Shown: positions 8,729-27,755 of the stretch, in pieces
Layout: each line of letters opens with the position of its first letter
Position numbering within the stretch: the stretch's first letter is position 1
From: Gracilibacteraceae bacterium
GTDB lineage: Bacteria; Bacillota; Desulfitobacteriia; Desulfitobacteriales; Syntrophobotulaceae
Assembly: GCA_031266805.1 (NCBI GenBank)
Contig: JAISAH010000018.1
Location: forward strand, 1-40,983
Reading direction: 5' to 3'
DNA: 40,983 nt
The notes under the pieces: model-generated
Told to the model about the DNA's origin: nothing
The model's database searches: none
What the model saw: the letters and a program-made list of their open reading frames with translations, nothing else
Program-made: the position numbers and the translations under genes

Positions 8729-10471
8729 TCAAGTTGTTATACTCATTGAATCTTTATTTATACCATAACTTGAAAGTTTCTTAATGATAGCAGGATGACT
8801 CAGTCCAATATGCTTTGCTGTATTTCTGATCGTTCCATATTTCTGCAGCGATTTGAGCAAATATGTCTTTTCAAAATACTCTTTGGCTTCGCGATACCCG
8901 GAAAATCTTTCCAATATTTCGTCAAATGATGATTCTGAAACAGGTTTTACCGCGGCGCTATTAGGAAAGCTGAATGTTTCAATATTTAAATTTAAATCCC
9001 GTCCGTTTAGTGAGACAAATATTTCAGCGGGTAAATGCTCCGGAAATATACAATCTTCATCGCTCAAAATAACAAGCCGCTCGATCAGATTTTGAAGTTC
9101 CCGGACATTGCCGGGCCAGTCATAGGAAAAAAATAAATTCAATAATGAATTGGAAATCTTTTTGTTGACATTATATTTGCTGTTATATTTTGCGAGAAAA
9201 CAATTAATAAGCGGCAGAATATCTGATTTGCGTTCTTTTAAAGGAGGGATAGTTAAATGCAAAACATTAAGTCGATGAAATAAATCCAGCCGAAATTGTT
9301 TTTGCGCGATCATCTGAGATAGATCCCTATTGGTAGCTGAAATCAACCGAACATCGACTCTTATCAATTTATTGCCGCCCACGCGATAGAATTCCATATT
9401 TTCCGCAAACCGCAAAATTTTAGCCTGAAGGGGCAATGTCATTTCCCCGATTTCATCCAAAAATATGGTGCCGTTATGTGCCAATTCAAATAATCCCATA
9501 TGGCCGCCTTTTTTTGAACCGGTAAAAGCCCCTTCCTCATAACCGAATAACTCTGATTCTAATAGGGTCTCGGGTATGGAGCCGCAATTGATCTTGAGAA
9601 ACGGAGTCCTTTTACGCCCGGAGTTCTCATGAATATAATCGGTCAGGACCTCTTTTCCCGAACCTGATTCTCCGGTTATTAACAGCGGCACATCGACTTT
9701 GGCATATTTTCGCGCGTTATTGAGCAAAATTTGCATTTTTTCGCTTCCGAATACATAATTGCCATGAGATGTTTTCGTTCCCTGGAATCTTTCCAGCAAC
9801 TTAGTGTAGCGATTTAATTGCAGCTGGCTTTCCAGCAATTCATCACGAAGAGCATTAATCTCGGTAATGTCGCGAATATTGCTGACGACTCTATGAATAT
9901 TTCCCGCGGAATCGAAAACGGGTCTGCCCGTGACCACCGCCTTCCTGATTTGATCATTATATCTGTATTCGTTCAAAAAAGTAACTGGTTGTTGTTTTTC
10001 CACCACCTTGATCGTGGACGATTCAGAATATGCCCCCATTGCAACCCCATCACGGACATTGCCGCCTAACATAGTTTCTCTGGGAATTCCGGATATCCTC
10101 TCGAAACTCTTGTTAATCCGCAGTATCTTGCCGGTTGCATCCGCTACGACTATACCATCCTGAACGTCTTCGATTATGGCTTCTAACTCCATCTTTGCTT
10201 CTAAGAGCTTACCAATGATATCGCCCGGATCATTGGCAAACAACACCATGATAAACCCCTCGAAACCACTATCCTCAATCATAACAGGATATATATTGAG
10301 GAAGCCAAAGGGCGTTAAAATAAAGTTCTGCGGTTCGGCTGGCAGGGCCTCATTGTTGATGAGATCAGTTATAGAACGCCATTCGGGGTGCGCGTACTGC
10401 TTTTGTACGAACTGCCCTTGCGCATCCGTTAGAAAGGCTTGAATAGAGGGATAATAGCTATCATTACTCAT
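8729..10471 (-). CDS. sigma-54-dependent enhancer-binding regulator with PAS domains
   Basis: A bacterial enhancer-binding protein of about 580 residues. An N-terminal region (about 1-90) looks PAS-like and may be the ligand sensor. A clear PAS domain follows (about 95-210, IIEDVQDGIVVADATGKILR). The AAA+ domain (about 240-470) has Walker A GESGSGKE, Walker B IFLDEIGEM, the arginine-bearing LFHRLNVL region, and the sigma-54 contact loop read as GAFTGS rather than GAFTGA. The C-terminus is a Fis-type helix-turn-helix (TIRNTAKHIGLSHPAII). The ATG at 10471 has AGAGGTGGG upstream; a GTG four codons earlier is less likely. It lies 128 bases downstream of the catabolic operon end and is AT-rich (8941-9000 has 22 G/C of 60). 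It is the natural candidate to activate the -24/-12 promoter before fixA. Confidence 0.9.
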   Translation of the reverse strand: MSNDSYYPSIQAFLTDAQGQFVQKQYAHPEWRSITDLINNEALPAEPQNFILTPFGFLNIYPVMIEDSGFEGFIMVLFANDPGDIIGKLLEAKMELEAIIEDVQDGIVVADATGKILRINKSFERISGIPRETMLGGNVRDGVAMGAYSESSTIKVVEKQQPVTFLNEYRYNDQIRKAVVTGRPVFDSAGNIHRVVSNIRDITEINALRDELLESQLQLNRYTKLLERFQGTKTSHGNYVFGSEKMQILLNNARKYAKVDVPLLITGESGSGKEVLTDYIHENSGRKRTPFLKINCGSIPETLLESELFGYEEGAFTGSKKGGHMGLFELAHNGTIFLDEIGEMTLPLQAKILRFAENMEFYRVGGNKLIRVDVRLISATNRDLSQMIAQKQFRLDLFHRLNVLHLTIPPLKERKSDILPLINCFLAKYNSKYNVNKKISNSLLNLFFSYDWPGNVRELQNLIERLVILSDEDCIFPEHLPAEIFVSLNGRDLNLNIETFSFPNSAAVKPVSESSFDEILERFSGYREAKEYFEKTYLLKSLQKYGTIRNTAKHIGLSHPAIIKKLSSYGINKDSMSITT

Positions 10472-10545
10472 AATACATCCCACCTCTCACATGTCAGCAT
10501 GAAAAAAGATCCACGGCGGTTATGTTGATTGAGTGAACAGAAAAG

Positions 10546-11436: not shown

Positions 11437-12609
11437 TCAAAAGCTTTTTTGCAGAATATTCCTGACGTCCTCCGCGGAGAAAGGCATAAAACTGTTCGCG
11501 CGGCCTTCCGGTCCATAAGCTTTGACAGCCATTTCATCAAAGTATTTATCTTCGCTGACGCCCGCCTTCCGCAGCGTCTCGGGAAGACCCAAGGAAGAAA
11601 AGAATCGGCGCGTTTTCTCAATGGACAGGCGCGCGATCTCTATGGGCGGCAGCGCTGCGTCAATCCCCCAAACATTCAGGCCGAAGGTTACAAAACGCGG
11701 CAAAGTCTTCTCACTCAGAACATATTCCATCCAGACCGGCGTGAGGACCGCCAGACCAACCCCATGAGTGACATCATCATAATAAGCGCTGATAGTATGC
11801 TCTATTTCATGAACGCTCCAGCCAATGTCTTTGCCTTTGGCCGTCAGCGTATTCACCGCCAATGAAGACGCCCACATGAGATTAGCCCGCGCTTCGTAAT
11901 CAGTCGGGTCATCCATGGCTGCCGGCGCGTAATGGATCACTGTCTTCAGCAATGCTTCCGCGATACGGTCTGACACATAAGCTGATTCGTCCACCGTAAA
12001 ATACGGTTCGCATATATGCGAAAAAATATCCGCCGAACCGGCGGCCGTATGCTTTGGAGGAACAGTAAACGTATATGTCGGATCAAGAATCGATACTTTG
12101 GGGAGCATCATATTGCTGCCGGTGATAAGCTTGTCGTGTCGATTCATATCAGAGATTACCGCCAGGGCGTCCATCTCGGAACCCGCTGCGGCAAGCGTCA
12201 GCACAGTAAATATGGGTAAAAATTTCGTATAACGTACTTGCATCGAAATGAGGTCCCAGGGATCTCCTTCGTAAGCGACACAACCGGCAATTGTTTTCGC
12301 GCAATCAAGAACAGAGCCGCCGCCTACAGCGAGTACCCCGCCAACTTGGTGCAAACGGCATAAACGCACGCCCTCTATGACATCCGGAAGTTTCGCGTTT
12401 GGTTCAATGCCGGGCAATTCGGCAAAATTTATGCCTGACTTTCCCAATTCTTCTATAACCGCGTCATAAACGCCGTTGCGCTTAATACTCCCTTGACCGT
12501 ACACCAACAGTACTCTAGCGCAATATTGCCTGATGTTTCTTCCCAGATTTTTGATTTGGCCTTCGCCAAAATAAGAGCGGGTACCGATTGCATAGGTAAA
12601 ATTTTCCAT
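11437..12609 (-). CDS. iron-containing alcohol dehydrogenase, butanol-dehydrogenase (BDH/YqhD) type
   Basis: About 390 residues. It resembles NAD(P)H-dependent butanol dehydrogenases: an N-terminal FTYAIGTRSYFGEGQI, the nucleotide-binding VLAVGGGSVLDCAKTIA (about 92-108) and a metal-binding region with IFSHICEPYF and later histidines (SVHEIEHTISAYYDDVTHG, about 260-278). It would interconvert an aldehyde and a primary alcohol or omega-hydroxy acid. 4-Hydroxybutyrate dehydrogenases belong to the same broad family, which fits an AbfD-type pathway, but the specificity cannot be read. The ATG at 12609 has GGAGG at a suitable distance; an upstream ATG 15 codons earlier lacks one. It lies 51 bases after the small CGGCNP gene and 19 before the flavodoxin-like gene. 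Confidence 0.88.
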   Translation of the reverse strand: MENFTYAIGTRSYFGEGQIKNLGRNIRQYCARVLLVYGQGSIKRNGVYDAVIEELGKSGINFAELPGIEPNAKLPDVIEGVRLCRLHQVGGVLAVGGGSVLDCAKTIAGCVAYEGDPWDLISMQVRYTKFLPIFTVLTLAAAGSEMDALAVISDMNRHDKLITGSNMMLPKVSILDPTYTFTVPPKHTAAGSADIFSHICEPYFTVDESAYVSDRIAEALLKTVIHYAPAAMDDPTDYEARANLMWASSLAVNTLTAKGKDIGWSVHEIEHTISAYYDDVTHGVGLAVLTPVWMEYVLSEKTLPRFVTFGLNVWGIDAALPPIEIARLSIEKTRRFFSSLGLPETLRKAGVSEDKYFDEMAVKAYGPEGRANSFMPFSAEDVRNILQKSF

Positions 12610-12660
12610 GAACACTGATTCCTCCGGTTTATCCGCATTATATATCAACTTCAAAGATGT

Positions 12661-15859: not shown

Positions 15860-17800
15860 TCAGATTTTCATGGCCACCTGATAGGCGTCATACGTAGCGT
15901 CTTTGACCTTGCGCGGCAGAACGGCGTCGCCCAGCGGATATATCTCCCCCTGATATCCGGACAAAATCAATTCTTCGTACAGGCGGTCATTTACTTTGAG
16001 GCCGATCGCGAAAACAACGCGGTCAAAGGGCTGAGCGGTATAGACGCCTCGTGATTGTAAGGTTACGCCCTGTTCATCGATATGGTCGACAGTTGTACTG
16101 GTCTTGATATTGATGTTCGGGCTCTCTTCCAAACACGCCCGCAGCACCCATCCTTCCCGCAGGCCCAAACCTCGCACCGGCGCGGCGCCCGGCTCGACGA
16201 CGGTGACTTTATAGCCGTTGTCGCTTAAATAGATTGCCGTTTCACAACCGACCAGGCCTGCGCCCATCAGAAGTATGTGTTCGCCTTTGGCCGGAACAAT
16301 TTTACCGCTGAGAATATCTGTGGCGACGCAGTGGGGAATACGTTCCAGCCCGCAGATTGTGGCTGGAATGACCGGATTTGATCCTGTAGCCACGAGAACC
16401 GCGTCCGGGTTTTCAGTCAAAACATAAGCGCTGTCCGCATTCTGGCCTTTAATAATCTGTACCCCCGCTTTTACCGCCAATGACTCCATATCCTCCGCCA
16501 CGATCCCGAACTCGTTTTTATGGGCCGGAACGGTCGCGTAGAGTATTTGTCCTCCCGCGCGGTTTTCTTTTTCCACAAGTTTTACCTTATGTCCGCGCTG
16601 AGCGGCTACCATCGCCGCGGTCAGCCCGCCAGGACCGCCGCCGATGACGAGTACGTTTTTCTTAACAGCCGCGGGGATTACGGCCAATTCTCTTTCCCGC
16701 CCGGCCCGCGGGTTGATTGAGCAGCTAATTGGCAATTGCGTTCCCAATTGATCACTGCAGGCCATGCACGCCGGGCAGCGCTGGATTTCATCAGCGCGGC
16801 CTGTCTGCGCTTTTAGCGGGAAGAACGGATCCGCGTGCAGGGCGCGCCCCAGGCTGATATAATCCGCGTCTCCAACCGCCAATAATTCTTCGGCGAAGTC
16901 CGGTGTGTTGATTCTCCCCACGGTGGCGACAGGAATTGAGACATGTTTCTTAATCTCCCGCGTCACTTCGCGCATAACCCCATGAGGGAAAGACGTTGGC
17001 TGCACTATCCACATTACAGATTCATAGGTTCCCGCGGAGATATCAATCAAATCGACCCCACTTTTTTCCAATTCTTGGCAAAAAATACACGTCTCTGCCA
17101 GGTCGCTGCCGTCAGGCATCTTTTCTTCACCGCTATGACGATAGATAAGCGGATAATCGCCGCCCAAGGTTTCCCTCACTGCTTTGACCACTTCCAAGGG
17201 GAAACGCATGCGGTTTTCTAAACTTCCGCCATATTCATCCGTGCGCTTATTAGCCCGCGGCGAAATAAATTGATAGAGGAGATAGCCGTGGCAGCCGTGC
17301 AATTCGACCGCGTCATAACCGGCGGCTTGCGACAAGGCGGCTGATTTGGCGTATTTTTGTACCAATTCTTTGATTTCAGCAATGGTTAAAGGACGGGGAA
17401 TATCGCCATGGGATAAAGTGGCGCACGGAACAGCCGACGGGCCTACCGGCTGGAAACCAGTGTAATCAGAGGAACATTGACGGCCGCCATGTACGAGTTC
17501 GACGGCTACTTTTCCTCCCGCGGCGTGAACAGCGTCCGTCAGCTTTTTATGGCTTTCAATCTGGCTCTCATCGTAAAAACCTAACTGAGCGATGTGGTTT
17601 TTGCCAACCGGATCGATATAGGTCGCCTCGATGATCATCAAAGCGACGCCGCCCTTTGCTCTTTCCACCAAATAATCAATATACCGTACAGATGGCGTAC
17701 CATCGACATGCGCGTAATTCCTTTCGCAAGGCGCCATTATCAGCCGGTTTTTCATTTCCATATTCCGGATTTTACTGGATGTAAACAATCTGTCATACAT
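15860..17800 (-). CDS. old-yellow-enzyme/2,4-dienoyl-CoA-reductase-like Fe-S flavoenzyme
   Basis: A 646-residue three-domain oxidoreductase. An N-terminal FMN TIM barrel (about 1-370, LFTSSKIRNMEMKNRLIMAP, VELVHGGRQ, ELHGCHGYLLYQFISP) is followed by a cysteine cluster for [4Fe-4S] (RCPACMAC ... PISC, about 345-365) and then FAD/NAD(P) domains with VLVIGGGPGGLTAAMVAA (about 388-405) and LLMGAGLVGCETA (about 510-522). The family includes 2,4-dienoyl-CoA reductase, 2-enoate reductase, BaiCD/BaiH and trimethylamine dehydrogenase. The Cys spacing C-x2-C-x2-C-x11-C is one residue shorter in the second gap than in E. coli FadH and closer to trimethylamine dehydrogenase. It probably reduces an enoate or enone double bond. 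The ATG at 17800 follows AAAGGAGG. Confidence 0.92.
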   Translation of the reverse strand: MYDRLFTSSKIRNMEMKNRLIMAPCERNYAHVDGTPSVRYIDYLVERAKGGVALMIIEATYIDPVGKNHIAQLGFYDESQIESHKKLTDAVHAAGGKVAVELVHGGRQCSSDYTGFQPVGPSAVPCATLSHGDIPRPLTIAEIKELVQKYAKSAALSQAAGYDAVELHGCHGYLLYQFISPRANKRTDEYGGSLENRMRFPLEVVKAVRETLGGDYPLIYRHSGEEKMPDGSDLAETCIFCQELEKSGVDLIDISAGTYESVMWIVQPTSFPHGVMREVTREIKKHVSIPVATVGRINTPDFAEELLAVGDADYISLGRALHADPFFPLKAQTGRADEIQRCPACMACSDQLGTQLPISCSINPRAGRERELAVIPAAVKKNVLVIGGGPGGLTAAMVAAQRGHKVKLVEKENRAGGQILYATVPAHKNEFGIVAEDMESLAVKAGVQIIKGQNADSAYVLTENPDAVLVATGSNPVIPATICGLERIPHCVATDILSGKIVPAKGEHILLMGAGLVGCETAIYLSDNGYKVTVVEPGAAPVRGLGLREGWVLRACLEESPNINIKTSTTVDHIDEQGVTLQSRGVYTAQPFDRVVFAIGLKVNDRLYEELILSGYQGEIYPLGDAVLPRKVKDATYDAYQVAMKI

Positions 17801-17906: not shown

Positions 17907-19286
17907 TTAACCATTTTTAAACAGAACTTTTTCATTGATTTCTTCAAGTGTTTTATGTCTCGTTTCCACACCGAAGATCGCCACAACGATCGCCACGATA
18001 AACAGGCAAATGCTGACCGCGACAAACACTGAGACAGAACCAAAATTATTCAAGAGCCAAGCAACTCCGGGCGGTGTTACAATAGCGGCGATACGGCTGG
18101 CCGAGTTTCCTAAGCCAACGCCTCTGAGTTTAGCGGCGACCGGAAATATCTCGGTCGCGTAGACTGAGCAAATGAGTGTAATATAAAAATAGAGGAAAAG
18201 CATCAGGATGAAACCGATAGCCATGATCATTATCGCTTCTTTTTGCAGCGAATAAACGATTGATGTGACGCACATTCCCAGCAGACAGACAATCAAGGCC
18301 GTTTTGCGCGGAACGTGGTTAGCCACTCCTGCACAAATTATACAGCCAATGGGAGCGGCAATCAACATAACTGTCGTTAATCGCAATGAAACCTCCAACG
18401 ACATACCGTTCATCTTGAGAATAGTGGGAATCCAGTTCACCATGGTATAGGTCGCAATATTCATGCCGCACATACCCACGACAAAGGTGATGGTTCTTTT
18501 CGCCAGCGTCCCTTTAAATAGGGCTGAGTACGGGAGGTCTTGCGTGATTTCTTGGGTCAAGGCGTCATAATTAACGGCTGCCAGCTCAACCCCTTTGGCT
18601 TCGAGGTTTTTCTCAACTCGGGTGACGATAGCGTCCGCTTCTTCTATTCGGCCTTTTTGCGCCAGCCATCTGGGGGATTCTTCAAGATAAAAGTGCTGCA
18701 AAACGCACACGATCAGACCAAACACACCGACAATAAACCAAAGAGGCCGCCAGGTAAACACCGGAATGATCATCATGGCCATAAATGTTGCGATCGGAGG
18801 GCCAAAGTTGGCAATCGTCGAAACGAGTCCGGAGTATTGCCCTCGGTTTTTCGGAGGCAGGTACTCGCCGAAAGAACCATAAGTGGCGGCGTATTGAGCG
18901 CCCATGCCCATCCCTAAGACGGATCGGCAAACAATCAGGACAATCATATTAGGAGCGAAACTGGCGGCAATTGACGCGCAGCCAAAAAAGATCAGATTGT
19001 ACTTCATGGCGCTTTTCCGGCCAAAGCGATCCCCGATAATGCCAATCAAATAGGCGCCGATCAACCAGCCCAACATTGTAAACGAGATGAAATAGGCGTT
19101 GAGAGTCGTGGTTGAAAAACCGCTGTCGAGAACTGCGGCTAATACGGAACTGGAAAAATAATTATCAATACCATCCGCCAGAATTCCCAGACCCAACAAT
19201 ACTAAAAGTTTGTTATGCCAGCGGCTAATAGGAATACGGTCTAATCGCGCGGCAATTGATTCAAAAGACTGTCGCTCTGTACTCAT
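17907..19286 (-). CDS. MFS metabolite:H+ symporter
   Basis: A 459-residue major facilitator with about twelve transmembrane segments, of the sugar-porter/organic-acid symporter type. The signature after TM2 is GDRFGRKSA (about residues 85-93), the TM4-5 region has CRSVLGMGMGAQYAATYGSFGEYLP, and the mid-loop has LEESPRWLAQKGR (about 205-217). The C-terminal repeat ends ETRHKTLEEI. Relatives import aromatic acids, other carboxylates or sugars by proton symport. Placed in the middle of the CoA operon, it most likely imports the pathway substrate. The ATG at 19286 follows GAGGAGG. Specificity cannot be told from sequence. Confidence 0.88.
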   Translation of the reverse strand: MSTERQSFESIAARLDRIPISRWHNKLLVLLGLGILADGIDNYFSSSVLAAVLDSGFSTTTLNAYFISFTMLGWLIGAYLIGIIGDRFGRKSAMKYNLIFFGCASIAASFAPNMIVLIVCRSVLGMGMGAQYAATYGSFGEYLPPKNRGQYSGLVSTIANFGPPIATFMAMMIIPVFTWRPLWFIVGVFGLIVCVLQHFYLEESPRWLAQKGRIEEADAIVTRVEKNLEAKGVELAAVNYDALTQEITQDLPYSALFKGTLAKRTITFVVGMCGMNIATYTMVNWIPTILKMNGMSLEVSLRLTTVMLIAAPIGCIICAGVANHVPRKTALIVCLLGMCVTSIVYSLQKEAIMIMAIGFILMLFLYFYITLICSVYATEIFPVAAKLRGVGLGNSASRIAAIVTPPGVAWLLNNFGSVSVFVAVSICLFIVAIVVAIFGVETRHKTLEEINEKVLFKNG

Positions 19287-19331: not shown

Positions 19332-20126
19332 TCAATCCCTGTAAAACCCTGTATACTCCGGTTTTTTCTTAGCGACAAAAGCGGCCATGCCTTCCCTCTG
19401 ATCCTGCGTCGCGTAAACCTCGCTCGTAACAAAGCCTTCAAAACGGCACGCTGTCCTGATATCCATATCACGTCCGTAGGTTAATGTCGCTTTCATCAAT
19501 CGCATAGCCGTCTGCGATTTGCTGTTGAGTTCCCCGGCTAATTCCATAGTTTTATCCAGCAAATCATCAGGTTCAGTCACAAATTCCACCAAGCCGATAC
19601 GGTACGCTTCCGGAGCGTCGATCATCGACGCGGACATCGTCAGCCATTTTGCCATACCGGTACCGACAAGACGAACCAATCGCTGAGACCCGCCGAAAGC
19701 GGCCGTGACGCCGATGTTGACCTCGGGCACGCCAAATTTCGCTTTTGCCGACGCTACACGGAAATCACAGGCTAACGCCATCTCAATACCGCCGCCGACC
19801 GCGTAGCCGTTCACCGCCGCAAAAACCGGCTTTTCAAATTCTTCTATCATATGCATGAGCTGCTGTCCATAGGTGACCCATTCGCGCGCTTTTTTAGGAT
19901 TCAGTCGCATCATCGGTTCGACGTTGTCGCCGGCGCAAAATGCTTTCTCGCCCGCGCCCGTGATCACAACACTGTAGACCTCGTCATTTTCTTTGCATTC
20001 GTCGAAAATATCCCGTAATTCTGCCATTATATCCAGATCAAGGATATTCAGTTTCTGCGGCCGATTCATGGTAATCAGCGCGGTATGGTTCTTTAACTCA
20101 ACGAGATGCGTTTCACGCTCTTTCAA
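19332..20126 (-). CDS. enoyl-CoA hydratase/isomerase (crotonase family)
   Basis: A 264-residue crotonase. Oxyanion-hole segments are AFCAGDNV (about residues 62-69) and NGYAVGGGIEMALACDF (about 105-121). The two catalytic glutamates of enoyl-CoA hydratase are both present, in GGGIEM and in FGVPEVNIG, so true hydratase activity is plausible. It would interconvert a 2-enoyl-CoA and a 3-hydroxyacyl-CoA downstream of the AbfD-type dehydratases. The start is TTG at 20126 with AGGAGG seven bases upstream; no ATG gives a better N-terminus. It lies 64 bases after the second AbfD-like gene. Confidence 0.9.
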   Translation of the reverse strand: MKERETHLVELKNHTALITMNRPQKLNILDLDIMAELRDIFDECKENDEVYSVVITGAGEKAFCAGDNVEPMMRLNPKKAREWVTYGQQLMHMIEEFEKPVFAAVNGYAVGGGIEMALACDFRVASAKAKFGVPEVNIGVTAAFGGSQRLVRLVGTGMAKWLTMSASMIDAPEAYRIGLVEFVTEPDDLLDKTMELAGELNSKSQTAMRLMKATLTYGRDMDIRTACRFEGFVTSEVYATQDQREGMAAFVAKKKPEYTGFYRD

Positions 20127-20190: not shown

Positions 20191-21627
20191 TTAATCCGTG
20201 ATATCAAGAATAGCTTTCGCAAGCTCTTTCTTGTTCTGTAAGTTGCCGTAACGCTGTATTTGCACTCGCTGCGCCTGCGGCGATCCCGCTCCGTGCATGG
20301 ATTCAGTCTTGTAACCCATAGCCCCTGTCCCGAAACACATATTTTCAATTAGCCGCAAGAGTTTCATCCTGTTTTCAGCGGGAACTTCCGAACCGGCGAA
20401 ATACTTTTTCATATACGGCCCCGCGACCGGATGCTCAAGATCCTTGGCGGAAGGCAATGTGACCATGATGCCGCCCGCGATATCTTCCATTATCTTAGTT
20501 ATTTCGTATGGGAAACGCGTTATATTGTGTTTGCAGACATTAGCCAAAAGAAGATCGACCATAAAGTTTCCCGCCGGTGTTTTAAAGCTTTCGCAAGAGC
20601 AGGCTATGCCGCATGAATAAAGGGTTTCGTTAAGATGGATCATCTCAACGAGTTTGTCCTTGATATGCGACGCTTTCGCCGTGCCATTGTAGTCCGCCAT
20701 TAACGCCGCCGCGCCAATAAGAACATCTCCGACTCCGGCTTTGCATCCACCGTAGCTGGCGCGGTGATAAGACGCGAAACGCTCAACGAAGGGACCGGCC
20801 CATTCCGTTTCGCCGCACATAAGAACGTGATCCCACGGCACAAAGAGATGGTCGAAGACCATGAGCGATTCCTGGGAGCCGTATTTCATATTGCCCGAGT
20901 CGAAGGTCCCCTCTGTTTTACGCGTATCCCCAGGCTGACGCCCAAAGATATAGACGATACCCTCTGCGTCCGAGGGAGTAATAAAGGAGACAGCGTAATC
21001 TTTATCTTCCGGGCGCAGAGCCATAGTCGGCATAACAAGCGCCATGTGCGCGTTAGTCGCCGCTGTCGTATGGCATTTGGCGCCGCAGACGACGATGCCG
21101 TCACCGTTCTTTTCAACAATACGCACAAAAAGATCAGGATCCGCTTGCTGATGCGGCGGCGCGCCGCGATCGCCCTTCGCGTCGGTCACACCGGCGGCGA
21201 CAATCAAGTCTTCGTCCTGAATCTTTTTAAATATCGCCAGAAATCTCTGATGATAGTTCGTTCCCAATTTTTCGTCCATTTCATAAGTCATGCCAAACGC
21301 TGCGTTCATAGCGTCCATACCCGCACAGCGCTGGAAACAGGCACAGGTTTTTCGTCCCATCAACCTCAGCATCTTAATCTTTTTTATGAGATCATCAGTA
21401 CTCTGATGCAGATGACCAAAACGGTTAACTGTGTTTCCAGTCAAATGCGAAGTAGCAGTCATCAATTCCGCGTACTCAGGGTCTTGAGCGAGATCATAGG
21501 ATATCCTGACAGCGTTCAGGCTCGGCCGGATAATCGGATGATCGACCCAATTAGTGATCTCTTCTCCGAACATATAAAGTTTGTAATTCATTTTGCGCAA
21601 GCTTGTTTCATATTGCGCGCCTGTCAT
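20191..21627 (-). CDS. 4-hydroxybutyryl-CoA dehydratase-family [4Fe-4S]/FAD enzyme, paralog 2
   Basis: A protein of about 478 residues in the 4-hydroxyphenylacetate 3-hydroxylase (HpaB) fold family, and specifically the AbfD branch. Counting from the ATG at 21627, the cluster ligands are Cys97 and Cys101 (CACFQRCAGMDA), His288 and Cys295 (YHRASYGGCKAG). These match C99, C103, H292 and C299 of the Clostridium aminobutyricum enzyme, and the lysine next to the last cysteine is kept. AbfD dehydrates 4-hydroxybutyryl-CoA to crotonyl-CoA and isomerises vinylacetyl-CoA. A GTG three codons earlier (21636) has better spacing from GGAGG and is a possible alternative start. It shares the family layout with the gene at 23324 but is clearly diverged, so the two may handle different substrates or form a heteromer. 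It lies directly after the CoA-transferase gene. Confidence 0.88.
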   Translation of the reverse strand: MTGAQYETSLRKMNYKLYMFGEEITNWVDHPIIRPSLNAVRISYDLAQDPEYAELMTATSHLTGNTVNRFGHLHQSTDDLIKKIKMLRLMGRKTCACFQRCAGMDAMNAAFGMTYEMDEKLGTNYHQRFLAIFKKIQDEDLIVAAGVTDAKGDRGAPPHQQADPDLFVRIVEKNGDGIVVCGAKCHTTAATNAHMALVMPTMALRPEDKDYAVSFITPSDAEGIVYIFGRQPGDTRKTEGTFDSGNMKYGSQESLMVFDHLFVPWDHVLMCGETEWAGPFVERFASYHRASYGGCKAGVGDVLIGAAALMADYNGTAKASHIKDKLVEMIHLNETLYSCGIACSCESFKTPAGNFMVDLLLANVCKHNITRFPYEITKIMEDIAGGIMVTLPSAKDLEHPVAGPYMKKYFAGSEVPAENRMKLLRLIENMCFGTGAMGYKTESMHGAGSPQAQRVQIQRYGNLQNKKELAKAILDITD

Positions 21628-21692
21628 TAGTGTCACCTGATTCGACCTCCGTTTCCCTTTGCCCGTCGGGAAAAAAGTTAATATTTAGGTTA

Positions 21693-23291
21693 TTAGGGTC
21701 TTTTTTTCACGCCGATCTCATCTTTGATATTCATTGGCTGAGGCAAATAGATCCTGTGATCCATCACTTTTAAATCTGGAGAGACCTTGATTTTTCCGAC
21801 GACCTGATCCAGAACATGTGTCTGGAGATCAATGCCCGGGGCTATTTCCGTTAAAACCATTCCATCCGGTCTTAATTCAAAAACACAGCGTTCCGTAATA
21901 TAAATTACCTTCTTTTTGTTTTGAACGGCAAAATTGCCGCTGTAGGTAATCTGTTCGACTTGCGGCAGAAGTTTTTTAGTCCCGCCTTCCTGTACGATAA
22001 CCATTTTCCCGTCTTCGATCTTCGTCTTTAACCCCCCGGTGGTGAGCGTTCCGCAAAAAACGGCTTCTTTGGCGCCCTGAGAGATGTTAACAAACCCTCC
22101 GGAGCCAATGACCCGCCCGGGCATCTTGCTTACGTTGACATTGCCGGATTCGTCGAATTCCGCCATGCCCAGAAAACAAAAATCAACGCCGCAGCCGTCA
22201 TAGAAATCAAATTGCTCTTTCTGGTGTATCATCGCGCAGGCGTTGATCGAAGCGCCAAAACCCGCTCCTCCGCACGGGATGCCGCCGATGGCGCCGCCTT
22301 CCACCGTTAATGTCAAAGCGTCGTCAAAGCCCTCCTCCGCCGCTACCGCGGCGACTCCCTCGCCGATGCCTATTCCCAGACTGACTATCGCTCCGGGAAA
22401 AAGTTCCATGGCCGCTCTGCGAGCAATGGTTTTCCTCTGATCCAAAGGAATGGAGTTAATACTGTCTACTGGAACTCTAAGTTCTCCGCAAGCGGCAGGA
22501 TTAAAGTAAAACGCGTCATATGCCTGGGATTTATGCCGCTCATCACTCACCACCACATAATCAACGACAATAAACGGCACCCGAACTCGCCGCGGATCCA
22601 GGGTTCCGGCTTTGGCCACCCGCGTGACTTCGGCGATTACTATGCCGTCTCGCGCTTTGACCGCCTGAGCCATCTGCAACGGCTCGGTAATGACCGTATC
22701 ATGCTCCATGCTGAGATTACCGAGTTCATCCGCCGTCGTACAACGGATAAAACAAGCGTCCAAATCGACCGATTTAAAAAACAGCCATTCCTCGCCGTCA
22801 ACTTCCATCACCCGAACAATATCCTCATCGGTGATCAGGTTCATCTTGCCGCCGTCAATACGCGGATCTACATAAGTTCCGATGCCTGTTTTGGTAAATA
22901 TTCCCGGTTTGCGCCCCGCCATCGCATGCGTTAACTGGGCGAGTATCCCCTGTGGTATCGCGTAGGCTCTAATCTTGTTCCTGGCAATGAGTCTTCCTGT
23001 CGCCGGCGCCATACCGTAATGGGCCGTGATTGATTTTGCCAATAATCCTTCATGGGCGAAGTGATCCTGCCCGCGAATCTCTTCGGGATTGTCCGGAAAG
23101 AAATTAAAGTGTCCAAAACCGCCTTCACTGAAAAGCGTCAGGCCACGCGGGCATCCTTCTTTAATAAAACGATCTTCAAGCGCCGAACACAGCGTTTCCG
23201 GAACATTGGACGCTACAAAGCCTGTAACGGCAAGCGTCGCCCTATCTGGGATCAGTTTCGCCGCTTCTTCTTTTGTAATGAACTTCGCCAC
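21693..23291 (-). CDS. acyl-CoA:acetate/3-ketoacid CoA-transferase (propionate CoA-transferase type)
   Basis: A 532-residue class I CoA-transferase with fused alpha and beta halves, like YdiF and clostridial propionate CoA-transferase. The first half has VTGFVASNVPETLCSALED and LFSEGGFGHF. The second starts about residue 288 (IARRAAMELFPGAIVSLGIGIGEGV). The catalytic glutamate that forms the thioester intermediate should be Glu331 in LTVEGGAIGGIP. It would load the pathway acid with CoA taken from acetyl-CoA or a product CoA ester, saving ATP. The GTG start at 23291 is preceded by GGGAGGAAAA. It lies between the two AbfD-like genes, which supports activation of an acid that one or both of them then use. 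Confidence 0.9.
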   Translation of the reverse strand: MAKFITKEEAAKLIPDRATLAVTGFVASNVPETLCSALEDRFIKEGCPRGLTLFSEGGFGHFNFFPDNPEEIRGQDHFAHEGLLAKSITAHYGMAPATGRLIARNKIRAYAIPQGILAQLTHAMAGRKPGIFTKTGIGTYVDPRIDGGKMNLITDEDIVRVMEVDGEEWLFFKSVDLDACFIRCTTADELGNLSMEHDTVITEPLQMAQAVKARDGIVIAEVTRVAKAGTLDPRRVRVPFIVVDYVVVSDERHKSQAYDAFYFNPAACGELRVPVDSINSIPLDQRKTIARRAAMELFPGAIVSLGIGIGEGVAAVAAEEGFDDALTLTVEGGAIGGIPCGGAGFGASINACAMIHQKEQFDFYDGCGVDFCFLGMAEFDESGNVNVSKMPGRVIGSGGFVNISQGAKEAVFCGTLTTGGLKTKIEDGKMVIVQEGGTKKLLPQVEQITYSGNFAVQNKKKVIYITERCVFELRPDGMVLTEIAPGIDLQTHVLDQVVGKIKVSPDLKVMDHRIYLPQPMNIKDEIGVKKRP

Positions 23292-23323
23292 AACTTTTCC
23301 TCCCGCCTTGGACTCCCCTTAAC

Positions 23324-24775
23324 TTAATTCTCAATACCGGCAAGACGCTTTACAAGATCTTTTTTCTTGTCAATATTACCGTAGCGGGTGATCTGTATTT
23401 TCTGCGCCTGGGGCGAACCGGCGCCGTGCATTGATTCACAGCGATAGCCGGTGGAACCCGTGCCGTAGAGCATACATTCGAGAAAACGCAGACAGCGTAT
23501 CCTGTCCTCCGCCGAGGCGCCGCTCACGCCCTGGAACATCTCTTTCATCCATTCGCCGGCGACCGGATGCGCTAAATCTTTTGAAGAGGGCAAAGTCACC
23601 AGAACCCCGCCGGCAATTTCTTCCGCCATTCGGCATATCTCGTATGGAAAACGAGTGACGTTCAGCTTGGTGCAGTTAGCCAGAAGCATATCGACCATAT
23701 AGGTTCCCGCCGGCAGTTCATAACCTTCCGCGCCGGCCGCGATACCGCCCTGGTACAACACTTCGTTCAAATGAGTCATTTCTACCAATTTATCCTTAAT
23801 ATGGGATTTATTGGCCACGCCGTTATACTCGGCTATAAGAGCGGCCGCGCCAATCACGCAGTCACCCACGCCCGCCTTGCAACCTCCATAACTCTGGCGG
23901 TGATACGTCGCGAACCTCTCGACCATCGGACCCGCCCATTCGGTTTCGCCGTCCATGAGTACGTATTCCCACGGCACGAATAGGTTGTCAAATACCATCA
24001 GTGATTCTTGGCCTCCATATGTCGGATTGCCGCAATCAATCGCCGAATCTGGGCCTTCCGTTTTTCTCGTGTCACAGGATTGGCGGCCGTAAACGTAAAC
24101 GATGCCTTCCGCGTCGGACGGCGTGACAAAAGCGATCGCGTAATCCCTGGCGTCCGGCTTAACGGCACTGGTTGGCATGACCAGCAGCCAATTGGAATTT
24201 GTGGCGCCCGTCATATGGCATTTCGCCCCGCGCACAATAATGCCGTCCGCGCGCCGCTCAACGATATGGGTATACAAGTCGGGGTCGGCTTGCTTATTCT
24301 GGGCCAAGCTTCTGTCGCCTTTCGGATCCGTCACACCTAATTGCAGATAGATATCTTCCGCTTGAACACGCGTATAGAATTTTTTGAACCGTTTGTGATA
24401 TTCCGTCCCCATCGCCTGATCCATTTCATAGGTTATGGAATACACCGCGTTACACGCGTCGAGCATTCCGCAGCGCTGATAACAACAGGATGTCTTCTGT
24501 CCCATCAGCCGCTGCATCTTCACTTTTTTGATCAAGTCTTCGGTGCTGGCGACAAGATGGGTAAAGCGGTTGATTTTGCCGCCGGTCAATGGCGAGACGG
24601 CGGTCATCAGATCTTCGTATTCCGGGTCAAAAGCCATATCGTAACAGAGTTTGGTCGCGTTCAGCGAAGGCCGGATAATCGGGTGATCAACCGTGTTCTT
24701 GATTTCTTCACCGAACATATAAAGCTTAAAATTCATCTCCCGTAACGTTTCCTCGTACTGGGCTCCTGTCTTCAT
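23324..24775 (-). CDS. abfD: 4-hydroxybutyryl-CoA dehydratase/vinylacetyl-CoA isomerase (AbfD family), paralog 1
   Basis: A 483-residue AbfD-type enzyme that should carry FAD and a [4Fe-4S] cluster. The ligands are at Cys98 and Cys102 (CCYQRCGMLDA), His292 and Cys299 (YHRQSYGGCKAG). The last two have the same residue numbers as in C. aminobutyricum AbfD and the first two are shifted by one. The N-terminus MKTGAQYEETLREMNF and the segment MFGEEI are shared with paralog 2. The radical-type reaction removes an unactivated beta-hydrogen and the 4-hydroxyl to give crotonyl-CoA; the enzyme is oxygen-sensitive, so the host is anaerobic. The ATG at 24775 has AGAAAGGAAG upstream. It lies after the acyl-CoA dehydrogenase gene and before the CoA-transferase gene. 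Family-level confidence is high, but the exact acyl substrate is open. Confidence 0.9.
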   Translation of the reverse strand: MKTGAQYEETLREMNFKLYMFGEEIKNTVDHPIIRPSLNATKLCYDMAFDPEYEDLMTAVSPLTGGKINRFTHLVASTEDLIKKVKMQRLMGQKTSCCYQRCGMLDACNAVYSITYEMDQAMGTEYHKRFKKFYTRVQAEDIYLQLGVTDPKGDRSLAQNKQADPDLYTHIVERRADGIIVRGAKCHMTGATNSNWLLVMPTSAVKPDARDYAIAFVTPSDAEGIVYVYGRQSCDTRKTEGPDSAIDCGNPTYGGQESLMVFDNLFVPWEYVLMDGETEWAGPMVERFATYHRQSYGGCKAGVGDCVIGAAALIAEYNGVANKSHIKDKLVEMTHLNEVLYQGGIAAGAEGYELPAGTYMVDMLLANCTKLNVTRFPYEICRMAEEIAGGVLVTLPSSKDLAHPVAGEWMKEMFQGVSGASAEDRIRCLRFLECMLYGTGSTGYRCESMHGAGSPQAQKIQITRYGNIDKKKDLVKRLAGIEN

Positions 24776-24825: not shown

Positions 24826-25965
24826 CTACTTCAGCAAATCCCCAGAAATAATCATGCGGTGAACCTCAGACGTTCCTTCCAGAATTTCCGTGAATTTCGC
24901 GTCGCGCATCAGTCTCTCCACTTTCGTGCCGCGGATATATCCTAATCCGCCGTGGATCTGAACCGCTTTGACTGTGTGAGTCATTGCCATTTCCGCGGCG
25001 AATAACTTGGCCATCGAAGCCTCGACCCCGAAGGGGCGCCCTTCATCATACAGTTTCGCCGCGTGAAGCACGAGTAAACGCGCTGCGGCAATATCCCTAG
25101 CCATATCGGCAATCATCCATTGAATCGCTTGGTTCTTCGCCAGCGGGCGACCGAACTGCCGCCTGTCTTTGGAATGCTTAACGGCTTCATCCAGCGCCGC
25201 CTGAGCTATCCCCACCGCTTGGGCGGCAATCGTAATCCGGCCGACGTTTAACGTGGTCAGGGCTATCCGCATCCCCTGTCCTTCTTTGCCGATGAGATTT
25301 CCTTTCGGTACCCGGCAATTTCTGAAAATAAGTTCCGTCGTGTCGGAGCCGCGAATTCCCATTTTATCTTCGTGTTTGCCGGCCTCGAACGGAGACTCTT
25401 TCCGATCGACGATAAACGCGCTGACACCTTTGCTTCCCGGCGTGTCAGGATCCGTCCGGGCGAACAGGACGCAAATTCCACAATACCCGCCATTGGTGAT
25501 GAACATCTTCGCGCCGTTGATAATGTAGTCGTCGCCGTCGCGCGCCGCTCCGCACATCAGAGCGCCCGCGTCAGTGCCGGAACAAGCTTCGGTAAGAGCG
25601 AACGCGCCATAATCCTCAAGTTTGCACAAACGCGGGGCATATTTCTCAATCTGTTCCTGTGTGCCGAATTCCAAGATCGGGCCGGCGACCATCGTATGAG
25701 CTCCCAAAGTAAGCGCCGTCGCCGCGCAGGATCTGGCCAGTTCTTCCAGGATCAAGACATAGCTTATTTTGTCGGCTCCGCCTCCGCCGTATTCCTGGGG
25801 ATAAGGAACACCCGTCAGATCCAGATCCGCCAACATGCGCATAGCCTCATCCGGGAATTCCCCCGCTTTATCGATTTCTTCGGCCCTCGGCTCAAGTTCT
25901 TTCTCGGCAAATTCACGCGCTATCCGCTGAATAAGCTGTTGTTCTTCTGTCAATGGCAGATTCAC
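24826..25965 (-). CDS. acyl-CoA dehydrogenase (butyryl-CoA-dehydrogenase-like)
   Basis: A 379-residue FAD acyl-CoA dehydrogenase of standard length. The helical N-terminal domain (LPLTEEQQLIQRIAREFAE) is followed by ALTEACSGTDAGA and FITNGGYCGICVLFART (flavin-binding beta domain, about 120-175), then the C-terminal helices with HSKDRRQFGRPLAKNQ and QIHGGLGYIRG. The catalytic base of the short/medium-chain enzymes is present as Glu363 in ILEGTSEVHR. It exchanges electrons with FixAB, whose genes directly precede it, and could work as a 2-enoyl-CoA reductase or an oxidative dehydrogenase. The GTG start at 25965 has AAGAGGTG upstream. Closeness to FixAB recalls the CaiA-FixAB pairing of carnitine metabolism, though the protein itself looks more like butyryl-CoA dehydrogenase. 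Confidence 0.92.
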   Translation of the reverse strand: MNLPLTEEQQLIQRIAREFAEKELEPRAEEIDKAGEFPDEAMRMLADLDLTGVPYPQEYGGGGADKISYVLILEELARSCAATALTLGAHTMVAGPILEFGTQEQIEKYAPRLCKLEDYGAFALTEACSGTDAGALMCGAARDGDDYIINGAKMFITNGGYCGICVLFARTDPDTPGSKGVSAFIVDRKESPFEAGKHEDKMGIRGSDTTELIFRNCRVPKGNLIGKEGQGMRIALTTLNVGRITIAAQAVGIAQAALDEAVKHSKDRRQFGRPLAKNQAIQWMIADMARDIAAARLLVLHAAKLYDEGRPFGVEASMAKLFAAEMAMTHTVKAVQIHGGLGYIRGTKVERLMRDAKFTEILEGTSEVHRMIISGDLLK

Positions 25966-25985: not shown

Positions 25986-26909
25986 TTAATTTTTCCGCAG
26001 CGCCGTGATCATGCAGGGAACAAAATCGTATAAATCACCGACAATACCATAATCCGCCGAGGCGAAAATCGGCGCGCTCTCACTGTTATTAACCGCTACC
26101 ACTGTTTTGGAATCACGTATGCCGGAAAGATGCTGAATTTGTCCGGACACGCCAATGGCGATATAAAGGCTTGGGCGGACTTTAAACCCCGAAATGCCAA
26201 TGTATGACTCGGGAGGAAACCATTGATATTCATTGATTGCGCGTGTGCAAGACACTTCCGCTCCCAGCGCCGCCGCCATTTCGTAAATCAGATTTAAATC
26301 ATCTTTTTTTCCCACTCCGCGGCCGACACAGACGATCTTATCCGCTTTCGTCAAATCGACACTCGCTCGCTCTATCGGCAGGCGATCCACGATATTGATC
26401 GCTGATCCGCCGTCTGCTTCTTGTATCCGCAGCGAAGCATCAGCTGCTCCGAGAGCAGCCGCCGGAGTATAAAGCGACGCCGCCAAGGTAATCAAACTCG
26501 GAGACGATAACGCCTCAGTCGCGATAGCCAAACCGCCGTAAACCATCCGATCCGTCTCGATTATCCCCTCATTATTCCGGATATCCAAGGCGTCAGTAAC
26601 CAATCCGGTTCCCAAGATCGCGGCGCAGCGCGCCGCAATTTCTTTGCCGCTGCAGCTGCTCTCAAACAATATTGCCAAGGGTCGCTCCGTTTGAGCCAGC
26701 GCCGATAACGCTTCAACACAGGATTCCGCGCGCCCGTCTGCAGACCTGAACACCGTGACTTCATCAACACCGGCTCGGACAATTGAGTGCGTACCGTCTT
26801 CGCTGCTGATAAATACCCGCAGTTTTCCTGTTTGAGATATTTTCCCGGCACATGCGATCATTTGCGTGGCGACAGCGGCACTTTCTGAATAAATCCATAT
26901 ATCTCGCAT
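25986..26909 (-). CDS. fixB: electron transfer flavoprotein alpha subunit, FixB type
   Basis: A 307-residue FixB/EtfA protein. Signatures shared with FixB are MVYGGLAIATEAL (about residues 120-132), VCVGRGVGKKDD, YIGISGFKVRPSLYIAIGVS (about 235-254), SGQIQH, and the C-terminal APIFASADYGIVGD that binds FAD. It pairs with FixA (next gene upstream) to carry electrons between the acyl-CoA dehydrogenase and other redox carriers in the cytoplasm. Whether it bifurcates electrons, as FixABCX does, cannot be told: no FixC or FixX is present. The ATG at 26909 follows TGAGGTG. It lies 20 bases after fixA. Confidence 0.92.
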   Translation of the reverse strand: MRDIWIYSESAAVATQMIACAGKISQTGKLRVFISSEDGTHSIVRAGVDEVTVFRSADGRAESCVEALSALAQTERPLAILFESSCSGKEIAARCAAILGTGLVTDALDIRNNEGIIETDRMVYGGLAIATEALSSPSLITLAASLYTPAAALGAADASLRIQEADGGSAINIVDRLPIERASVDLTKADKIVCVGRGVGKKDDLNLIYEMAAALGAEVSCTRAINEYQWFPPESYIGISGFKVRPSLYIAIGVSGQIQHLSGIRDSKTVVAVNNSESAPIFASADYGIVGDLYDFVPCMITALRKN

Positions 26910-26929: not shown

Positions 26930-27700
26930 TCATTCTACTCGCAAGTATTCCAACAGTTTATCAACATTCTTGGCCATGTCTTCTTCTTTGATCAAGACAT
27001 GCTTGCGCTCGGAAACAGCCCCTTTGATCTTGATCAGCCTGTTTTTGGGTTTCAGCTGTTCATCGCTTAAACTCAGTTCAGATACATTAAGCCGCGTTGA
27101 CGGTTTCTTACCCGCCGCGAGTACTTGCTTCAAGCCAGGGATGCGCGGTTCGCATATTTCAGGCAGAACACTAATGACTACAGGCCCTTTCATCTGCAAA
27201 ATTTCAACAATATCCGCTAACTTGCGCTTGACAATAATATTGCCGTCTTGCCAGTCCAGTTCCATTGCGTAAGTAACGGCCGGTACGTTCAGTAAGGCGG
27301 CCAAACGGGCCCCAGTCTGCTGGGCATACGTATCAGACGAACCTTCCGCGCAAACAACCATGTCATACGCCCCTGTTTTACCAATAGCCGCCGCCAGCAC
27401 ATTGGCCGTCACATAAGAATCCGCCGTGATCGAGGATGGATCCTCAATCCAATACGCTTCTGCCGGCCCTCTGGAGAGCGCGTCCTTTAAGGACGCTTTA
27501 ACGTTTTCGTCTCCGTATGAAACAGTCCTCACCGAACCGCCGTATTTCTCACACAGGCGTACTGCCGCTTCTATGGCGTTTCGATCATAGTCGCTGATTT
27601 TATATTTCGCGCGGCTGCAGTTGAGTTCCAGAGTATCCTCCTTTACTGAGATGTCTTGCTCATTAATGACCCATTTGTAACAAACGACGATGTTCGGCAT
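26930..27700 (-). CDS. fixA: electron transfer flavoprotein beta subunit, FixA type; first gene of the operon
   Basis: A 256-residue FixA/EtfB protein. The N-terminus MPNIVVCYKWVINEQDI, the run KYKISDYDRNAIEAA (about 32-46), ALSRGP, and AEGSSDTYAQQTGA (about 113-126, nucleotide-binding) match FixA of the carnitine-linked pair more closely than ordinary EtfB. The frame is open 72 codons further upstream, but that part is not protein-like and lies across the promoter, so the start is the ATG at 27700, with AAGGAGA upstream. Its 5' leader is predicted to be only about 27 bases, from a sigma-54 promoter at 27739-27755. It begins a single-strand run of 16 metabolic genes. Confidence 0.92.
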   Translation of the reverse strand: MPNIVVCYKWVINEQDISVKEDTLELNCSRAKYKISDYDRNAIEAAVRLCEKYGGSVRTVSYGDENVKASLKDALSRGPAEAYWIEDPSSITADSYVTANVLAAAIGKTGAYDMVVCAEGSSDTYAQQTGARLAALLNVPAVTYAMELDWQDGNIIVKRKLADIVEILQMKGPVVISVLPEICEPRIPGLKQVLAAGKKPSTRLNVSELSLSDEQLKPKNRLIKIKGAVSERKHVLIKEEDMAKNVDKLLEYLRVE

Positions 27701-27738: not shown

Positions 27739-27755
27739 TGCAAAATTCGTGCCAG
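27739..27755 (-). promoter_or_regulatory. sigma-54 (-24/-12) promoter of the catabolic operon
   Basis: On the - strand the sequence reads CTGGCACG-AATT-TTGCA, matching the accepted sigma-54 consensus YTGGCACG-N4-TTGCW at every defined base. The predicted start of transcription, about 12 bases after the GC of the -12 element, is near 27728, giving a leader of about 27 bases before fixA. The only sigma-54 activator in the window is encoded at the far end of the same operon. Confidence 0.9.

Follow-up and report, generated by a model that had tools for sequence, protein, structure and literature searches.

Two diverged AbfD-family dehydratase genes flank a CoA-transferase gene in a predicted catabolic operon of a Gracilibacteraceae bacterium

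The chemistry of 4-hydroxybutyryl-CoA dehydratase (AbfD) is a rare ketyl-radical dehydration involving a non-activated C-H bond, and to our knowledge the enzyme has one established substrate. AbfD, typically a homotetramer, converts 4-hydroxybutyryl-CoA into crotonyl-CoA. Use of 4-hydroxybutyrate via abfT and abfD has been described for clostridia, AbfT being the known CoA-transferase partner of AbfD (PMC4591306). Two AbfD candidates, Msed_1321 and Msed_1220, are present in the genome of Metallosphaera sedula; this organism is an archaeon, and the candidates are alternatives for one step and differ in transcriptional behaviour (PMC7078158). With locus numbers differing by about 100, the two genes do not lie side by side. 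In the literature searched, which consisted mostly of non-subscription papers, we found no report of a catabolic operon that contains two AbfD genes.

We analyzed a 40,983-nucleotide stretch of DNA from a Gracilibacteraceae bacterium (the window). An earlier note on this DNA had described two AbfD paralogs flanking a CoA-transferase, and the open reading frames bear this out (Table 1). The order of genes on the minus strand is EtfB-EtfA-ACAD-AbfD1-CoAT-AbfD2-ECH-MFS, followed by genes for an OYE-like flavoenzyme, a VOC protein, a GldA-like protein, an SDR, a second VOC protein, a small cysteine protein, Fe-ADH, an FMN reductase and a sigma-54 activator. The part from EtfB to MFS has the appearance of a sigma-54-type breakdown operon of a gut-type anaerobe, and the OYE-like gene is probably an extension of the same transcription run.

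Table 1. Coordinates of the features of the AbfD1/AbfD2 locus in the window.
Feature	Position	Strand	Remarks
Predicted consensus sigma-54 (-24/-12) promoter TGGCACGAATTTTGCA	27739..27754	-	38 bp before EtfB start codon
EtfB	26930..27700	-	First operon gene; true start ATG at 27700 (MPNIVVCYKW)
EtfA	25986..26909	-	
Short-chain acyl-CoA dehydrogenase (ACAD)	24826..25965	-	Closest solved chain 5ol2_C (acyl-CoA dehydrogenase)
AbfD1, AbfD/HpaB-family FAD + [4Fe-4S] dehydratase, diverged copy	23324..24775	-	Pfam, PDB match, model
Fused family-I CoA-transferase (CoAT)	21693..23291	-	Between AbfD1 and AbfD2; closest solved relative E. coli YdiF (2ahu)
AbfD2, AbfD-family dehydratase	20191..21636	-	Ortholog of single AbfD of congener G004 (76% identity); Pfam, PDB match, model
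Enoyl-CoA hydratase (crotonase, ECH)	19332..20126	-	
MFS transporter	17907..19286	-	Resembles aromatic acid:H+ symporters, below family cutoff
OYE/BaiCD/2,4-dienoyl-CoA-reductase-like flavoenzyme	15860..17800	-	
Small four-cysteine protein, 112 aa	12661..12999	-	CGGCNP...GCxxxCA; beside abfD in other genomes
Iron-containing alcohol dehydrogenase (Fe-ADH)	11437..12654	-	74% identical to that of congener AbfD cluster
PAS + sigma-54 activator (PrdR-like)	8729..10483	-	60% identical to congener cluster regulator

AbfD1 and AbfD2 are full-length members of the AbfD family. Both matched HpaB_N and HpaB (PF11794, PF03241), and their best solved relative is the AbfD of C. aminobutyricum (1u8v), with E values of 7e-205 for AbfD2 and 2e-182 for AbfD1; the solved AbfD structures 1u8v and 6vjr match both copies far better than any monooxygenase does. 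AlphaFold2 models of AbfD1 and AbfD2 (mean pLDDT 93.5 and 93.6) returned 1u8v as the top Foldseek match (TM 0.97 and 0.98) at 56% and 61% identity, compared with 17-23% for HpaB-type enzymes, and their length is that of 1u8v as well. Identity as HpaB-type flavin monooxygenases was ruled out, since the two proteins score 148 and 138 bits against the TIGR02309 equivalog cutoff of 480 bits and the Fe-S ligands are present.

The [4Fe-4S] ligands C99, C103, H292 and C299 of 1u8v are all kept, as C98, C102, H292 and C299 in AbfD1 and as C100, C104, H291 and C298 in AbfD2. The latter numbers count from the GTG at 21636, which we preferred as the start over an ATG three codons inside because a GGAGG about 9 nt upstream is better placed for it. 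The earlier note had given the correct AbfD1 positions and correct motif strings near the ligands (CCYQRCGMLDA in one copy), and it had recognized the ligands of AbfD2, for which its positions (97, 101, 288 and 295) count from the later ATG. The copies are 63.7% identical, and their comparison gave a pN of 0.24 with a pS, already saturated, of 0.82, which indicates purifying selection overall on both. A decayed copy was thus ruled out by full length, retained ligands and pN far below pS; with most catalytic residues intact and confident models, the earlier impression that neither copy is dead holds.

The active sites were surveyed in an alignment of 80 family members using 1u8v numbering. Residues Q101, T190, E257, Y296, K300 and E455, which from the AbfD literature we take to be catalytic or pocket residues, are shared by 1u8v and both copies. 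Unlike in 1u8v, M149 of the GAMTD motif is replaced by Val in AbfD1, in AbfD2 and in the single AbfD of a second Gracilibacteraceae genome (the congener G004), while all 63 other core members have Met. Met149 is presumably a pocket residue conserved across the family yet no defining feature of it; as it is not a cluster ligand, AbfD membership is retained despite the substitution. The same three proteins also have V104G/A and G147L/A, and all three columns are near-invariant in the 63 other AbfDs. G191A, S195A and G255S are common to AbfD2 and the congener protein and are not found in AbfD1. Judged from these residues, both copies appear to have an unusual active site on an intact catalytic core.

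Changes at near-invariant positions found in AbfD1 alone are H76V, G105M and H196N. The absence of H76, G105 and H196 from this one member of the three could be explained by AbfD1 acting mainly as a vinylacetyl-CoA-type delta-isomerase, or as an enzyme otherwise altered so that it does not dehydrate. We consider this improbable, the least probable of the readings discussed here, because every cluster ligand is kept together with E257, Y296, K300 and E455, and because H76 is also missing from the archaeal AbfD 6vjr.

The divergence of the pair claimed in the earlier note therefore extends to near-invariant pocket positions. At 140 near-invariant columns AbfD1 departs from the family in 14 and AbfD2 in 10, and the two sets overlap only in part. 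Other members have a median of 1 such departure and at most 9, a comparison that is biased since these members served to define the columns. The changes are modestly enriched in active-site segments (p 0.02 for AbfD2 and p 0.11 for AbfD1), and AbfD1 is weakly the faster of the two (Tajima chi-square 1.1-6.3, depending on the outgroup). These departures argue against simple redundancy, in which two copies merely raise flux through one reaction. AbfD is reported to be slow and abundant (PMC7078158), and an independent local pair in another genome (G195), 74% identical and with near-identical pocket motifs, would suit such a dosage effect; weighing both sides, we regard it as decidedly unlikely here. 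Two specificities are a better fit than redundancy for a pair whose pockets diverge around an unchanged catalytic core.

Trees of 80, 53 and 20 sequences placed AbfD1, AbfD2 and the congener AbfD in one clade (support 100/99-100) on a long stem, apart from all other sampled AbfDs. This clade rules out that the operon brought together two old AbfD subfamilies, and the separate clades with their own neighbours that the earlier note had considered were not recovered; a sampled ortholog exists for AbfD2 only. Within the clade AbfD2 pairs with the congener protein (93-94/90-94) and AbfD1 branches outside. Constraining AbfD1 and AbfD2 as sisters lowered lnL by 17.4 (p-AU 0.021), whereas pairing AbfD1 with the congener AbfD is not firmly rejected (p-AU 0.129). 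Since sisterhood of the window copies is disfavoured, the gene was most likely duplicated before the two genomes diverged, and topology and AU test rule out a very recent tandem duplication in the window genome, the outcome that would have spoken against the earlier note. Based on these trees the duplication is most likely of genus level or older and restricted to the lineage. A search for further AbfD1-type sequences in 83 genomes of the class and 398 of the phylum returned only the window genome and the AbfD2-type congener, which was also the sole close relative detected in one scan of genome contigs. The pair can thus be described, from its sequences, as an in-lineage duplication within a known enzyme family with altered pockets in both copies.

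The congener cluster (locus L003) reads EtfB-EtfA-SSF-ACAD-AbfD-ECH-CoAT. It resembles the window locus in its AbfD, which has the same pocket motif as AbfD2, and in ACAD, EtfAB, ECH, Fe-ADH, the small cysteine protein and the sigma-54 activator. It differs in having neither AbfD1 nor a YdiF-type CoA-transferase at E<=1e-150; an AbfT-like CoA-transferase, an SSF transporter and an MBL-fold hydrolase stand in place. AbfD1 and CoAT would therefore be either extra in the window genome or lost in the congener, whose MAG is 83% complete, so that an AbfD1 copy elsewhere in it could be missed. The MBL-fold hydrolase gene (L003, 14861-15871) lies inside this single-AbfD cluster; one may speculate that its product is a lactonase supplying a 4-hydroxy acid.

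Because the congener cluster contains the AbfD2-type copy only, AbfD2 can probably serve alone. This bears on the possibility of an obligate or facultative mixed AbfD1/AbfD2 tetramer in which one subunit is perhaps regulatory or confers specificity. Near-adjacent genes in one operon and 64% identity would permit mixed assembly, but neither the ligands nor the conserved C-terminal motif ESMHGAGS show complementary loss between the copies, and no second AbfD accompanies the AbfD2 ortholog in the congener cluster sampled. A hetero-oligomer accordingly appears very unlikely, marginally more so than the dosage effect. Of the three options in the earlier note this one is weakened, and two substrates ranks best.

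The CoA-transferase between the two copies is of the YdiF type, unlike AbfT. It is a fused alpha+beta CoA_trans protein matching 2ahu with an E value of 9e-131 over residues 5-520, and family-I CoA-transferase activity is predicted for it from this match. Its closest YdiF-type relatives are encoded in GntP-permease/ACAD/EtfBA/FixC-like clusters; AbfD was not detected in these, and they do not reveal the substrate. As to regulation, TGGCACGAATTTTGCA is the sole exact match to the sigma-54 consensus in the window, about 0.04 being expected per window from a simple base-count estimate; no such site was found 5' of the congener's EtfB. A PAS/sigma-54 PrdR-like activator is encoded near abfD in most loci examined, which suggests that AbfD pathways are often under sigma-54 control.

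With both genes in one operon, a CoA-transferase between them and differing pockets, the two dehydratases could act in turn on a single substrate that has two groups to eliminate, or on a product that is fed back. The additional redox genes of the window cluster (OYE-like, GldA-like and SDR), which are absent from the congener cluster, are consistent with this. However, step order does not follow from operon membership, and a pathway with two AbfD steps was not found in the literature searched; we consider sequential action unlikely.

The reading that we favour, giving it about an even chance, is that both AbfD1 and AbfD2 function as 4-hydroxyacyl-CoA dehydratases/isomerases and assemble independently of each other; they would have arisen by duplication within the lineage, diverged in their pockets and come to act on two related 4-hydroxyacyl-CoA esters. 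According to this scheme the sigma-54 activator would turn the operon on and the YdiF-type CoA-transferase would activate 4-hydroxy acids by CoA transfer. In each dehydratase the substrate would sit between FAD and the [4Fe-4S] cluster, and the ketyl-radical chemistry of AbfD would let AbfD1 or AbfD2 remove the hydroxyl at C4, giving an enoyl-CoA. ECH could then hydrate the enoyl-CoA, or ACAD and EtfAB could exchange electrons with it. Two homomeric enzymes of different 4-hydroxyacyl-CoA specificity would thus supply one enoyl-CoA pathway, presumably in the direction of breakdown. More tentatively, the clade of AbfD1, AbfD2 and the congener protein may represent a specificity class for a 4-hydroxyacyl-CoA other than 4-hydroxybutyryl-CoA; as the second dehydratase, AbfD1 would then serve a different substrate or the next one in sequence, and one anaerobic pathway would include two radical dehydrations.

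AbfD gene pairing is not unique to the window, as other genomes carry AbfD near a divergent AbfD-like gene. In G195, whose class is represented by 3 genomes only, two intact AbfD genes lie within about 6 kb (L093, 9827-11290 and 15867-17465), with an AbfT-like CoA-transferase, an SDR and a small four-cysteine gene nearby. They form a sister pair (100/97) and, unlike the window copies, belong to another AbfD subclade. AbfD-like subfamilies with 38-42% identity to 1u8v (L022-L024, L033, L025-L028, L034, L035 and L090, 6388-7851) occur in genomes from the order to which the window belongs; they keep C-x3-C/H/C and differ in pocket residues (e.g. AHNSIAAYAD, VSQSGAIGSH).

The small four-cysteine protein, present in one copy each in the window genome and the congener, matched no Pfam family above cutoff. 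Its four cysteines are conserved without exception in 32 of 32 relatives. Of the 60 core abfD loci with enough sequence downstream, 28 have a relative of about 100 aa encoded on the same strand no more than 1.2 kb away; these loci are from Bacillota and Desulfovibrio. No relative was found at any of 14 divergent AbfD-like loci. The protein is a candidate for a factor in Fe-S maturation or for a partner of AbfD, and may point to one so far unrecognised. For the family as a whole, the altered pocket of the AbfD1/AbfD2/congener clade and the retention of two such enzymes in one operon would provide a natural test of how far gut-type anaerobes have extended AbfD chemistry to further 4-hydroxy acids.
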